Origin: Dictyophora rubrovolvata
Lineage: Eukaryota; Basidiomycota; Agaricomycetes; Phallales; Phallaceae
DNA length: 64,000 nucleotides
Assembly (NCBI GenBank): GCA_029959195.1
Contig: CP114124.1
Location: 2,333,102-2,397,101 of the forward strand
Direction of reading: 5' to 3'
Every line of letters begins with the position of its first letter. Within the stretch, counting starts at the first letter, position 1. This document shows positions 8,749 through 15,715 of this stretch, one piece after another. Under the pieces are notes generated by a model, which was given only the letters and a program-made list of their open reading frames with translations, was not told the DNA's origin and did not search any database. The translations under genes and the position numbers were made by a program.

Positions 8749-9532
8749 TCAAATGTGGGATAAATATTGTGGTTTTGAGTCGTGAACGACTTTCTCACTG
8801 TCTATTTTATTTTCAGCAACAATCTTTCGCAAACTACACCGAAGTTCCTCAGTAGTCCGTAACATATTTTTAGCCACTGATACATACTGGGTATCCACCA
8901 TTGCAAGTCTGATTTGAAGATCCCTGGAAGACTCGGAAATTCTAATGCAAGGAATATTGAAACGTTCAATCATTCGCTGCATTCTATGAGAATATCTTTC
9001 CGGTTCCTCCAAAGATCTCACTCCATCATCATACACCCATTCTTTCACAAAAGGTAGCAGAACTTAGAGTCGTGTAAGTGGCAGAAAACTGGGTAACAAT
9101 AATTTTATCTTTCTCACCAAATAGAGAACTCCTATAGAACTGAATAGCTTGCTGCAATCCTTCGGATAACAATAATCTTCTCTCCATGACTGCAGCAGCC
9201 TCTGTCTCCTCCATTCCCGCGTAAACAATCGGATCCAGCGCCGATCTATCACTCAGAAATAAGATAGGCGACTCTTCTGTCACATCCCTATCCGCATTTT
9301 CTCGTGCCATCCTCTCTGCATTGAGCTGCCCGTCCAAGATCGCTTTCTGCATATCGAACGTCCCAACATCCTTCCTGCTAAATCCTTGTGTTCTCATGAC
9401 CGTACGCGCAACTTCTTTAATGTGACGAGAAGCAGGAATTCTATAATGATGTGCGAGCGCATCGCATGTCGTCGTTTTACCGCTGGACGAAGGCCCAACT
9501 ACAAAGACAGCTCTAGGCCTGTATGTCTTCAT
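8749..9532 (-). CDS. NadR/Ttd14-like P-loop NTPase (AAA_28 type)
   Basis: This is a predicted 242-aa P-loop nucleotide kinase or NTPase. The Walker A motif is GPSSSGKTT near residue 13. FLSDRSALDPIVYAG fits the acidic Walker B-like block of this family, and VKEWVYDDGVRS is the typical C-terminal lid segment. Exons 9532..9118 and 9062..8749 are joined by a 55-nt GTGAGA..AAG intron; without it the frame loses the LLPFVKEW block. The start at 9532 is the first ATG after the gene-proximal end of the promoter shared with the RdRP-helicase. In the 213-nt divergent spacer, no upstream exon closes in phase. The substrate is unknown. Bacterial NadR acts on nicotinamide riboside, but eukaryotic relatives have other or unknown roles. 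Confidence 0.75.
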
Positions 9533-9745
9533 ATCCAATGACGGTGTTGTCTGTCGACGAACCTGAGAGAAAATAAAAACAGGGACTAGTCTATTCTCAG
9601 TTGTTCAAACTCTAAACTTAAATTCGAGTCACACTCAAGCGCTGCGGCACCACGAAGCTTCTGAGCACGAGATGATAAGCCCTTGGTGGTACTATTTATT
9701 TTCCGCGTCTCCATTGTTCCCAGTTCTTCCTCGGCTTTCAACACC
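9533..9745. promoter_or_regulatory. Bidirectional promoter, NadR-like gene and RdRP-helicase
   Basis: The two start codons lie 213 nt apart in divergent orientation, so both genes must share this short region for initiation. No clear TATA box is visible. Confidence 0.5.
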
Positions 9746-12700
9746 ATGACAGTCGTCCTCAGAGAAAACCCGGATCCAAACGATGATGCCTGGAGCTTTA
9801 CAAACGTTGCTATTCCCACCTCTAAGACCACCTCTCAGAATCGTCAAATGGGGAAGATGATCTCATTCAAAAACACCGGAATTACTCTGCAACTCATTGC
9901 GTTTCCCAAGAATCGGATCTTACATGGCGATGATCCATCAAAATTCATCCTAACCACATTTGGTGATTTCAGATTTCCTGACTCCGGACTTTCCGTTACG
10001 AGGGATTATATGATCAACCTATTCAAAGCTGGATTGACTCTCAATGGCAAACAATATCGGTTTTATGGACATAGTAATTCTCAATTGGTGAATATCTGCA
10101 CTTCTCATTGAACGACTGAAGTAACTCTGGAATGCGTTTCCAGAGGGGACGAAGCTGCTTCCTAAGGGAAGCGCAAAACGATCAGGAAATTGATACACGG
10201 ATCTCACGCCTCGGCGATTTTGACAATATTAAGAATGCCGCCAAAAGTAAGTGTCATATCCACTCTACATATATTCACTCTATAATGATGAAGGTGCTCG
10301 ACCATTCTTAATTAATAGAGGCCAAACGCATCGGGTTATTATTTTCAGAAGCTTCCATTGACTGGACTCTTGACCCAAAACATACGAAAGACATTCCGGA
10401 TATCACCATGAACGGGCAGCTCTTTTCGGACGGGTGTGGACTAATTTCGCGAAAACAAGCCATGCTTTTGGCAAAACACAAGCAAATTCGATTTCATGGA
10501 AAGAACTATACACCTACTGTCTATCAGATTCGGTATGAATCTGTTTCGTTCACTGGATCTATCCACTGACATTTTTCGTAGATATAAAGGATATAAGGTG
10601 GAGAATATACGCGGCGTCATTGCTTGCGCTAATATAATTCATCTCAGTTGCGTCCTAATGCTGCATCCAGATCTCGATGCTCGACGCGAGGCACTGGTAG
10701 CCTTTCGTACTAGCCAGAAAAAGTTTACAGCAACGGGTGATAACATCTTCTCCGTCGTCGAATCCTCCGTTCCATATGCCTATGGTCGCCTTAATGACGA
10801 CATCGTGGTTCTTTTAGCAAGCCTGGGCGTCACAACAGAGCAATTTCAACGCAAACAACAGCAATATTTCGACTGGATCGCGAGATCATCTGTGGAGTGG
10901 GAGGTCGCCTTCGATTTTTTATGCAGTCTTCGCAATTTTGATCTGGCGGAACGCGTTTTATTGGACGGTCTGGACAACGACAAAGTCCAGAAGAACATTC
11001 AAGCCCTCCAAAATTCGGAGATCGCATCATTCAAAAAGAAGGATCACTATCGCACGAGGACAATCATTCACAAATCTAGGCTCCTCTTTGGAGTTTGCGA
11101 TCCCTATCAAGTTCTTAAAGAAGGCGAAGTGCACGTGCGGATCATGGAGCCACGGAAAGGAGCCACGACCCTTACGAACATTGACGTTTTAGTCGTCAGA
11201 AATCCTTGTCTTAACCCTGGAGACTGTCTTAAGCTTCGAGCAGTCTCTCATCCAAAATTGGCTCATTTAGTCGATTGCGTTGTCTTTCCAACCGTGGGTC
11301 GACGGGCAGCACCGTCCATGAGTTCTGGTGGCGACCTTGGTATTTCATCCCGTATCTACTATTCAACTTAGTCTCATCAACTGATAGATGGTGACAAATA
11401 CTTTGTCATGTTCGATCCTGATATCATGCCTCCTAAAGTAGCGGAGGTATGATCCTGTCTATTGTTGGCGTCAAGCTGTTCTTTATTGATTATATGCATG
11501 TTCAAAGTCTTATACATACCCCGAAGGTAAACCGCCTCCTCCGAAAAATGTAGCACGAGAAGATCTAGCTCGTCACTTTGCATCATACAATGCGTATGTC
11601 TTGTTCTTCATCAATTAGCTACTATGTCATCATTGAATTTTACTAGGTCTGATCTCGCGAGAGTCTCCGCCTTACACAGAAAATGGGTCATCGCTAGTCC
11701 AGACGGTGCAATGAGTGCTGAATGTCAAGAACTGAACGCACTCCATTCCCTCTCCGTAGATGGCGGACGAATCAACATTCCAGACAGGTTGAAAAACCCT
11801 CCCAAACTCGATGGCAAAGGATACGTTCTTAACGTTCTCGCCGAAGCAGCACAAGAGTTTGCAGAGCGCTTCTTGGAAGTTAGAAAATCCACCATTCGTG
11901 AAATTGCGCAAAAAGATGCCCATAATATCCTATCGCAGTTTCTATCCACTGAAAGGCTTGGGGTGACAGAGTACGAACTCGCCTGCTCAGGCTTTAATTT
12001 GGCACAACGAAACGGCCTTAATCCACGCAATTACCTGTCTCATATCGATCTCGGGGCGTTGTCAATTTCCGAAAAGTATGCTCTTATTGTCCAGCTGGGC
12101 CTTTCTCCGGAGGAACAAGTATTGATTTGGAATAGGTGTATATCATCTCTCCTCTTTTTATGTTCTGGTCTAATTGTCTATGATCCAGCTTAGTCCGTTC
12201 AGATATCATCCAGCCTAGAGAATTGAATGACCGTAACCTAAATCAACCTCTTCGGTTTCAACGTCTTTACACTTCACGTATTCAAGGACGAGCCGCGTTC
12301 TTCGAGTATTTAACACAGGCTATGGAGGATTTCACACGGAAATTAATCATAATGAAGGTAATGCTTCTATACTCATTACAATTTGATCTCAATGTCGAGG
12401 GCCCAATAGACAGATGATCGATTTGCGGCGGGAATATTTGTTAAGGGAAGACTCAACGTGAATGAAGACGTTAGTTAATTCGCAGGGAAAGTTATGCATA
12501 TGCTGACACTTCCCCTTAACCAGGATGACATCGATGAAAACGTTGCCGTCTGTTCTTTTATGGCCAAAGCAGGCGGTGCTCCAACAACATACCGCCGAGG
12601 AACAAAAGGCTATAAAATTCACTTTGGAGAAAATATTTTCGAAGTTTTCAATCGCCAGCGTGCAGATACGTTTGTCTTTGCTACAAGATCTCCTCCAAGG

Positions 12701-15700
12701 ACTGGTGCCGACGTTGTGACTAGTATTGCTTTGCAAAAGATATCTGACAATATACGAAGGGTAGTGTATATTTAAGTTATGTTATCATTAACGTATTCTC
12801 ACCCGGCTCTCTCAAAGCAATTGGGACGACTTAACCGCACACCTGTCGTTGACATGGAAATTCACGTTATCTCCAATCGAGATCGAGTGGCTCACCAAGC
12901 CTTTGATCTACGTTTTGAACAGTGAAGCGACTTTTTTTTCGGTGTCACGGGCGTACTAAGTATTGATGTATTTTCACTCAGTGTTGAAACTACAGAATTC
13001 CTCAGACGGTTCGACCACAAACCCGTTCCATATACTCCAAACACGTTGAATTCGGTGGACTGGTCAAATTACCCTGCAACGCAAAAACAAATCTTCACGA
13101 CACCGAAAGAAATTGCTCAGACGCACATCGAACTGCTGGAGCTGAATGTACTCGAGGAACTTATGAACTTTGCCTATGAACGACGCGCTGAGGAGCAACT
13201 ATTCTGGTTATTCGAAAACCTATTAGAGCGAGATCACTCGAGAATTGCGACACACATTAGTCGGCATCCACCGCTGTCCTATGTGGTCCTGAAACGGCAT
13301 TTAGTGGAAGACAGCACTCTGCCTCCTTCATTAACTGGACTTGCATATATCCTTCTCCGAGGAGTCGTACGGTCCGCAAATGAATTGAAAATGGCGTCGT
13401 TGGTAGCCTTGGAAAAGATGGCTCAACAGATCAGAGATCTCGACTTTAGGCAGTATTCCGAACTACTTTGGTTGGCCTGTCTTTCTGTTCGACCTCGACA
13501 GCTAGTCCAAGAAGTGTTACTTGTATTACATGAATGTCGTCAAAATTCTGGAGAATCGGCTTTGATGAGATATGCTCACAAAGAAGCGTTGGCCATCGTT
13601 TTTGATCACGTCGAGGAAGCTGCAGATGAATGTCCAACGGATGATCAGGGAAGACCGACAAGACAAAAAACGGCCCCTGTGCGAGCGAAGCTTGTTCCAC
13701 CAAAAAAGAAGGACAATGCTGACACAGAAGAACCAAAATCACTTGTCCAGGACGACATTGTTTGTGCTCATATTCGAGTGGATGCACTTTCATCCATTAG
13801 AATACACTCGCACATTCGTCTACAAGTTGCTTCACCTGCAGAACACTCGGTCATACCACGTGCTGTCATCGACGGTATAGTAACGCATGCGGGAAAAGGG
13901 GAAATTATGCTGCAGGTTATGCATCCTCTGCCTCCCGAGTTCATGATTATGGATTGGAATATCTACACAGCCGGGAGTATTGCTACATCTCGAGCTATGC
14001 TGGACGCCGTTTTACGTCTTGTTGAAGAAAGAGGAGAATGCTGCAGTTTTTATAAGGTTATCACTGGTAGCCAAGGATCAGAACCGGCGGAAGAGGACCA
14101 ACCTCCGGAAAGTGTTGACGTTGAATCCCTATCAGCGGAGTACGTAGTAAAAGACACTCTAAACTCAAGTCAACGTCATGCCATCAACGTTGCCCTAGCC
14201 CAAAGGGATGGCATGACTTTGATTTGGGGACCTCCTGGTGAACCTGGAGAACGGAACCTTGTCATTTTTTTTGTCAACTGATTTTTCCTTTTCAGGTACT
14301 GGAAAAACTACGGTGATTGTGCAGATTTTGCAAATTTTCGTTCGTCAAGTACTGGAAGAAAACCACGAAGATAGCCCCCCCCGACGAATCTTGATGACAG
14401 CGTCGACTCATAACGGTATGAAACGAGTAATATTATACATATTATACCCGCTACTCACATTACAATTAAAATAGCCGTAGACAACGTTCTGGAAAGATTT
14501 CTAGCTGAAAATGAAGTGTCGAAGCTACTACGTACTGAACAAATTCTTCGAGTTGCGACTGACATCTCGAGAGTCAGCAAAGCGCACCAGAAGTATACCA
14601 TAGATGCACGAGTAGGAGGGATTGTAAACGAGGATTCACGGTTGCTACGGCAGGCAGAGAAAAGATTGAAAGAAGCCAGGCTCATCTTTACCACTTGTGC
14701 AGGAGCAGGACTCGGAATCATGCGAAAACTTGACTTTCCGATTGTATTGATTGACGAGGCATCGCAGATCACAGAACCTACTGCCCTGATATCTCTGGTC
14801 AAAGGCTGCCAACGAGCAGTACTAGTCGGAGATCAGTAAGTTGATTATTTTCTTCGATTCCAGGGACTGATGTTGATTACGTTTTGTGTTCAGTGTTCAG
14901 CTGCGCCCCACCGTCAAACCTATGGGCGCGATTCTACAATATGATATCTCGCTTTTAGAGAGGTTATACGCGGGGCCTCCGAATTCTAAAATTTCCCGTA
15001 CAATGTTAGAAGTATGTCTTTGCTCTGGCGTTGTTTGTATCATACACCTTCTAACATAGGTCTCGTATTACAGATTCAATATCGCTTTTCTGATGCTATA
15101 GGAAATTTCCCTTCCTCGCAGTTCTACGAAGGTCGCTTACGTTCTGGTCTGGTTGACAGGGGCTCAGATCCACGACTGACGGCATCGGTGTTTCCATGGC
15201 CTATAAACCCTGCGACCGGAAGTATAGTGCCAACAATTTTTGTTTCGTGTGCTGCTGAAGAAGACTATGGGAGATCCTCGAAAAGCAACGGTGGACAGGT
15301 GAAGATGGTGAAGGAGATCGTTTCTGTTCTTAGGACGGAACGCCAAGGATTGCCTGATGCTACTACAGCCACAGAAGTAGGATCAACATCCATTGCCATC
15401 CTTACGCCCTACTCTCGACAGGTAGCTCAGCTAAAGGCGGAAAATATACAAGATGTGATAATAAGCACGATTGATGGGTTTCAAGGGCGAGAGAGCGACA
15501 TTGTCATCTTCTCGACTGTCCGGTGTAACGCAGAAGGTGATATTGGCTTTGTCGAGGACGCGAGGCGACTGAATGTTGCGTGGACAAGGCCAAAGCTTGC
15601 CTTGATCATTGTGGGAGATCGCAGGACGTTGGGAACAAACAGTCCGCTTTGGGCACGAGCTATTCAATCGTGTGCATTGGTAGAAATTTCTTTGCCTCCC

Positions 15701-15715
15701 GAACCTGATAAATGA
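9746..15715 (+). CDS. RNA-dependent RNA polymerase fused to SF1 helicase (RNA silencing)
   Basis: One reading frame of 16 exons encodes 1695 aa. Exons are 9746..10087, 10144..10246, 10319..10532, 10582..11339, 11388..11446, 11508..11593, 11647..12135, 12219..12357, 12410..12469, 12524..12760, 12818..12921, 12982..14237, 14296..14415, 14475..14835, 14894..15011 and 15074..15715; every phase closes. Residues about 35-720 are a cellular RDR-type RdRP: FGDFRFPDSG, NSQLRGRSC, LGDFDNIKNAAK, FSDGCGLIS, YQIRYKGYK, VRNPCLNPGD, LVDCVVFP, and the catalytic GGDLDGDKYFV (Asp471, 473 and 475). Residues about 1250-1690 are an SF1 helicase: GPPGTGKTT (Lys1286), THNAVDNVLERF, LIDEASQ (Asp1416), GDHVQLRPTV, QYRF, QGRESDIVIFS and NVAWTRPK. 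The middle resembles the N-terminal region of SDE3/Hrr1-like helicases. Role by family: synthesis of dsRNA in RNA silencing with unwinding of template or product. An apparent stop at 12476 lies inside a 54-nt intron. Confidence 0.93.

Follow-up and report, generated by a model that had tools for sequence, protein, structure and literature searches.

The locus described here raises the question of whether an RNA-dependent RNA polymerase (RdRP) and a superfamily 1 (SF1) helicase are encoded as one protein. In RNA silencing the two enzymes have mostly been studied as separate subunits, and how they are coupled is unclear. The stretch of DNA analysed, hereafter the window, comprises 64,000 nucleotides of the basidiomycete Dictyophora rubrovolvata (contig CP114124.1 of assembly GCA_029959195.1, positions 2,333,102 to 2,397,101 of the forward strand), and the gene in question was predicted at positions 9746 to 15715 on the plus strand. 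In a single predicted frame carrying both sets of catalytic motifs, a polymerase core is followed by an orphan middle region and then by an SF1 helicase, and the two enzymes are very probably encoded as one protein. If the two are naturally tethered one to one, each with its motifs intact, the order of helicase and polymerase steps could be tested in a single purified protein.

The gene model was rebuilt by hand from the raw sequence and was supported by per-exon coding scores and Pfam matches. It starts with the ATG at 9746, ends with the stop codon at 15713-15715 and comprises 16 exons separated by 15 introns of 48-72 bp, all with GT-AG boundaries. The spliced frame of 1705 codons contains no internal stops. 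A preliminary description of this DNA had given a closing frame of 16 exons and 1695 residues; the frame was borne out, at 1705 amino acids through a different intron choice. The motifs named in that description were all present in the rebuilt model, with DLDGD at residue 471, GPPGTGKTT at 1290, DEAS at 1426, QGRESD at 1629 and WTRPK at 1662. The codons of DLDGD are split by intron 4 and intron 12 falls within GPPGTGKTT. Pfam identified an RdRP domain (PF05183) at residues 84-566 (E 7e-96), AAA_11 (E 1e-44) and AAA_12 at residues 1469-1675 (E 2e-42); by the last two domains the helicase is complete.

Exons 1-6 with introns 1-6 (9746-11646) cover the beginning of the RdRP core together with its catalytic part, in which DLDGD begins at 11333 and intron 4 lies at 11340-11387. 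The detectable core ends within exon 7 (11647-12135), at about residues 566-580, where the region without relatives begins and continues through exons 8-11 and introns 8-10 (12189-12921). Intron 11 (12922-12981; 60 bp, GTGAAG...CACTCAG) carries the frame from the polymerase side into exon 12 (12982-14237), a single open exon that runs from the middle region to the helicase P-loop. The SF1 helicase core (14228-15715) extends from motif I, GPPGTGKTT, to motif VI, that is, from the end of exon 12 to exon 16.

The coding potential of the exons was assessed with a codon model trained on 27 long open reading frames (ORFs), the fused gene being excluded, in which stops penalise a frame heavily. In each of the 16 exons the model frame outscored both alternative forward frames as well as the highest-scoring reverse frame, and the single stop counted against it, in exon 16, is the gene's terminator. 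Exon 12 is free of stops in the model frame, and its two alternative forward frames contain 21 and 17. A simple gene finder whose weights drew in part on the fused gene, introns included, recovered the start and stop of the manual model and departed from it at two internal places. When trained on other loci, a set itself first predicted with weights from the fused gene, the finder over-extended both ends (26 exons, 1977 amino acids) and differed at some splice sites, with the join of exons 11 and 12 kept.

This join is where one gene would have to be divided into two. Intron 11 has a normal length, donor and acceptor, carries branch-like motifs 15 and 22 nt upstream of the acceptor and keeps the frame; if retained, it would introduce a TGA at 12923-12925. 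The 61 codons between the start of exon 12 and its first methionine (residues 875-935) score much as coding sequence does: 243 of 471 true-frame stretches, taken from the ORFs used to train the codon model, score no higher, and the score was reached by five of 177 open wrong-frame stretches, drawn from the same long ORFs rather than from intergenic DNA. Two separate genes are therefore unlikely. The preliminary description had named an internal promoter and poly(A) site among the observations that would speak for two proteins; the poly(A)- or TATA-like hexamers AATAAA, ATTAAA, TTGTAA, TATGTA, TATAAA and TATATA do not occur within 12801-13300.

The polymerase half matched PF05183 with 322.6 bits against a gathering cut-off of 23.8, covering positions 53-536 of the 582 of the profile. 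The nearest solved RdRP was plant RDR1 (7w84), in which residues 451-926 of the chain were aligned by phmmer to residues 89-567 of the query (E 2e-44). RDR2 was next, matches to the two plant enzymes ranging from E 2e-44 to 5e-40, and QDE-1 was a far weaker match (E 1e-14 at best). DLDGD conforms to DbDGD, the metal-binding motif of this family. Near it the core also has RNPCLNPGD, DCVVFP and SGG stretches, which are important parts of an RdRP core. The fused polymerase is likely to be of the RNA interference (RNAi) type. Unlike plant RDR1 and RDR2, which provide the nearest solved core, the predicted protein lacks their N-terminal region and runs on into orphan sequence and the helicase. In an alignment with a stand-alone paralogue, C1b, the fused protein has its residue 56 opposite residue 422, which indicates that some 365 N-terminal residues are missing. 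The region that lies ahead of the core in stand-alone RDRs was not found; the upstream DNA holds a divergent gene for an AAA_28-type P-loop protein (9032-9604, minus strand; PF13521, E 7e-14), which occupies the space that a longer N-terminus would need. The polymerase as predicted is an RdRP core rather than an entire RDR, and the earlier phrase "entire RDR-type polymerase" was too strong.

The genome (28.2 Mb, 11 contigs) yielded 19 RdRP matches at five loci, the fused gene included. Three of the other loci are RDR-type and mutually alike over more than 1000 positions at 24-34% identity, and no AAA_12 match was found beside them. The fused RdRP could be aligned to these three only over about residues 45-580, at 22-24% identity. 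The fifth locus (contig C5, 1,393.7-1,395.7 kb) is QDE-1-like, has DYDGD and is distinct from the three RDR-type genes. The paralogue models came from the same finder, which tends to run past gene ends and to join adjacent genes, and domain regions alone were used. A comparison of the fused core with a collection of genome contigs gave 26 pattern matches and no relatives.

The helicase half possesses the SF1 motifs and matches AAA_11 and AAA_12 above cut-off, placing it in the UPF1-like superfamily group of SF1. Against chains in the PDB, it scored 150-151 bits with UPF1/NAM7 (phmmer E 2e-43 to 5e-43), 143-147 with a "5'-3' RNA helicase-like protein", 124-130 with SEN1 and 127 with SMUBP-2; lower scores were obtained with DNA2 (100), ZNFX1 (87) and Aquarius (47 or less), so that ZNFX1 stands behind UPF1, SEN1, SMUBP-2 and DNA2. 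The NCBIfam model of the IGHMBP2 family gave 254.6 bits, below its cut-off of 348.9. UPF1 was also the nearest helicase of the same genome by BLAST (33% over 445 amino acids). The fused helicase shares its SF1 core motifs with UPF1, IGHMBP2 and SEN1, which are its nearest solved relatives by score, but it is not UPF1 proper, since about 150 bits to solved UPF1 compare with 708 for the UPF1 encoded elsewhere in the genome. No match to the UPF1 CH domain or to the NFX1 zinc finger was found by Pfam in the fused protein, and a comparison of the helicase with a collection of viral contigs gave three pattern matches and no relatives.

AAA_12 was matched 17 times in the genome, at 11 loci, ten of which lie outside the fused gene. 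Besides its own UPF1 the genome has genes read by us as SEN1-like and IGHMBP2-like; the MOV10-, SEN1-, IGHMBP2- and DNA2-like class names are our reading, UPF1 and two ZNFX1-types alone having been checked against the PDB. The ZNFX1-type genes (C6, 561 kb; C3, 627 kb) are separate from the fusion and have ZNFX1 as their best solved relative (221 and 199 bits). Their motif II is EEAG, at a spacing of 366 and 267 amino acids from motif I, whereas the fused helicase has DEAS at 136. Fission yeast Hrr1 has been termed an orthologue of ZNFX-1 (PMC9276528). The fused helicase is nearer to UPF1 in its scores and its motif II, and it is not a typical Hrr1-type enzyme, because typical ZNFX1-types exist apart in the genome and both motif II and the spacing differ. 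This bears on the proposal of the preliminary description that the partnership of Rdp1 with Hrr1, or of SAD-1 with SAD-3, is here fixed as one protein. The fission yeast RNA-directed RNA polymerase complex (Rdp1-Hrr1-Cid12) and SAD-1/SAD-3 of Neurospora likewise pair an RNAi RdRP with an SF1 helicase, but as separate subunits, and one of these helicases is the ZNFX-1 orthologue. The single frame with both enzymes stood; its derivation from this partnership is doubtful.

Three further observations concern helicase genes elsewhere in the genome. On one strand of contig C1, roughly 10 kb separate a further RdRP gene, C1a, from the genome's canonical UPF1 gene (about 2,312-2,319 and 2,328.5-2,332.4 kb); this closeness may be due to chance but is intriguing given that an RdRP is joined to an SF1 helicase on another contig. 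Three similar helicase genes, MOV10/SDE3-like in our reading, were found at 1,348.7-1,355.7 kb of C9 and 1,188.5-1,195.6 kb of C5, two of them in tandem, representing an expansion of another helicase type. The predicted protein of the ZNFX1-type gene at 626-631.4 kb of C3 has a second, C-terminal P-loop (GNPGTGKT).

The middle region (residues 568-1238) had no PDB match at E<=10 and no NCBIfam match, and no second copy was found in the genome, all five matches falling on the fused gene. A diverged RdRP C-terminus may make up part of this region.

As a whole, these data are best explained, tentatively, by a single-chain enzyme in which an N-terminally shortened RDR core is followed by an orphan middle and an SF1 helicase or translocase that delivers the polymerase to RNA 3' ends. 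UPF1-type helicases travel 5'->3' on single-stranded RNA, RDRs start at RNA 3' ends and an RdRP reads its template 3'->5'. The helicase would bind single-stranded transcripts, move 5'->3' with ATP and remove proteins and structure from the transcript; the tethered polymerase would thereby be brought to the 3' end, a site at which RDRs can initiate, and the resulting double-stranded RNA would pass to the Dicer and Argonaute proteins of the fungus. Argonaute (Piwi) was matched 11 times in the genome, at four places, and RNase III five times, at three places, with two in a Dicer-like pair. Delivery to the 3' end is a possible mechanism, proposed with far more reserve than the existence of one protein. 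The model that fits least well, if the motor is 5'->3' like UPF1, is unwinding of the template in front of the polymerase, because on the template it would then oppose the polymerase during synthesis.

Several points weigh against the single-chain enzyme and its proposed action. The claim of one protein is drawn from sequence, and intron 11 is its weak point: left unspliced, it would end the polymerase at 12923-12925, with methionine 935 as a possible start for a helicase. The fusion is predicted from one genome. The 365 or so N-terminal residues of C1b are absent and the C-terminal part of an RDR was undetected, and polymerase activity is therefore not assured. AlphaFold prediction of exon 12 by itself (418 amino acids, no alignment supplied) gave a predicted local distance difference test score of 35 and a predicted template modelling score of 0.23, and the model was not used. 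Trees, furthermore, place the fused helicase outside the UPF1-, SEN1-, IGHMBP2- and MOV10-like rows. They do not favour any one subfamily firmly, incline to the ZNFX1 side and count against labelling the helicase simply as UPF1; the helicase polarity, deduced from class, is accordingly tentative.

The trees, unrooted and with long branches, were built from sequences of this one genome, with no fungal Hrr1 or SAD-3 among them. In every tree the split put the fused helicase together with the two ZNFX1-types, on a branch of about 0.5-0.7. Support for this split was 76/81 with 11 rows, 84/89 with nine rows and 91/91, 92/91 and 88/90 for three column sets with eight rows, below the starred level in all trees; for the eight-row trees, rows C3b, C4 and C9a were dropped and another alignment was used. 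The two ZNFX1-types paired to the exclusion of the fused helicase with support of 100/99 to 100/100 and a branch of at least 2. Constraining the fused helicase to group with the genome's own UPF1 gave p values of 0.028, 0.049, 0.12 and 0.086 in four settings; held with the MOV10-like set, p was 0.12, with the SEN1-like 0.173 and with the IGHMBP2-like 0.118. Such trees are compatible either with an early branch that is sister to the ZNFX1 line or with a lineage placed between that line and the rest. In the former case the protein could be a fused pair like the fission yeast complex: its helicase half would belong, as a diverged member or an early sister, to the Hrr1/SAD-3/ZNFX1 line, and two ordinary genes of the ZNFX1 type would have been kept alongside it. 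A fused pair of this kind is unlikely. The consistent split (76/81 to 92/91) favours such a pair, but the ZNFX1-type genes are separately present, motif II and its spacing differ, ZNFX1 scored 87 bits against about 150 for UPF1 and no NFX1 zinc-finger match was found; the trees, moreover, have the composition described above.

A second alternative retains the single chain but assigns the motor to the product. A 5'->3' helicase tethered to the polymerase would strip the growing strand from the template, releasing single-stranded antisense RNA and allowing the template to be used again. Given the polarity assumed above, a 5'->3' translocase that is part of the enzyme could follow the product strand, not the template, during synthesis. 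QDE-1 reportedly makes short products. The products of fungal RdRPs are described as unsettled (PMC6396948). This alternative is doubtful, depending as it does on the presumed polarity of the helicase. A more far-reaching version, in which loss of the RDR N-terminus and addition of a 5'->3' SF1 translocase behind the core turned a maker of double-stranded RNA into a releaser of single-stranded antisense RNA with template recycling, while the fungus retained four further RdRPs together with ZNFX1- and UPF1-type helicases encoded apart, is very unlikely.

Equally doubtful is a relic that is inactive or works outside RNAi, the shortened RdRP serving as an RNA-binding platform for the helicase. 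The missing N-terminal part and the identity of 22-24% between the core and its three RDR-type paralogues point in this direction, and for the amphioxus RdRP a role unrelated to RNAi has been speculated upon by the authors (PMC6396948). The DLDGD, RNPCLNPGD, DCVVFP and SGG stretches have been kept, however, in a frame open over 1705 codons.

Two adjacent genes are also unlikely: an RdRP ending at the TGA of an unspliced intron 11 and a separate helicase of about 770 amino acids starting at methionine 935 or later would be in keeping with the methionine codons of exon 12 (residues 935, 1011, 1020 and others), with a helicase core that is complete by itself and with the four RdRPs of 807-1198 amino acids in Sanghuangporus vaninii, for which the available part of the source mentions the RdRP domain alone (PMC9769868), but the normal signals and length of intron 11, the kept frame, the 61 open and coding-like codons and the absence of the six hexamers from 12801-13300 oppose it, and terminator, promoter and both untranslated regions would have to fit in about 240 bp.

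Joins of helicase and polymerase are already known in a few other lineages. A full-length RdRP domain with a preserved active site occurs together with AAA_12 in one predicted protein, BL02069, of the amphioxus Branchiostoma lanceolatum (PMC6396948). As here, an RdRP of the cellular type with an intact site is combined with AAA_12; the source, as far as available, mentions AAA_12 alone and states neither domain order nor helicase class, and the host is an animal. The likeness noted here is one of domain content. RDRs with an N-terminal superfamily 2 (SF2) DEAD-box helicase have been described from Dictyostelium, peronosporomycete oomycetes, Hydra and Nematostella (PMC4791657). These too place a helicase and an RNAi RdRP in one polypeptide, but theirs is SF2 and N-terminal, whereas that of the fused gene is SF1 and C-terminal, and neither an N-terminal DEAD-box nor a helicase-C domain was among the Pfam matches of the fused protein. 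The predicted SF1 helicase at the C-terminus of a fungal RdRP differs in this respect from the published SF2-RDR fusions. A helicase of another superfamily at the opposite end suggests that such joins probably arose more than once.

Among the literature matches listed, which leave most subscription journals outside coverage, there was no report of an RdRP-SF1 helicase fusion in fungi. Three RdRPs are described for Pleurotus cornucopiae, the RdRP domain alone being mentioned in the accessible text. Agaricomycotina carry 0-14 RdRP genes each (funRNA, PMC4290597), which makes unreported RdRP architectures likely. The fusion may be either common in fungal annotations or special to this lineage.

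Elsewhere in the genome, about five STE3-type pheromone receptor genes (17 matches) were found on contig C11 at 864-874 kb and 1012-1013 kb, four of them clustered within 10 kb. A receptor set of this type fits a mushroom-type basidiomycete, and the cluster is probably a mating-type locus.

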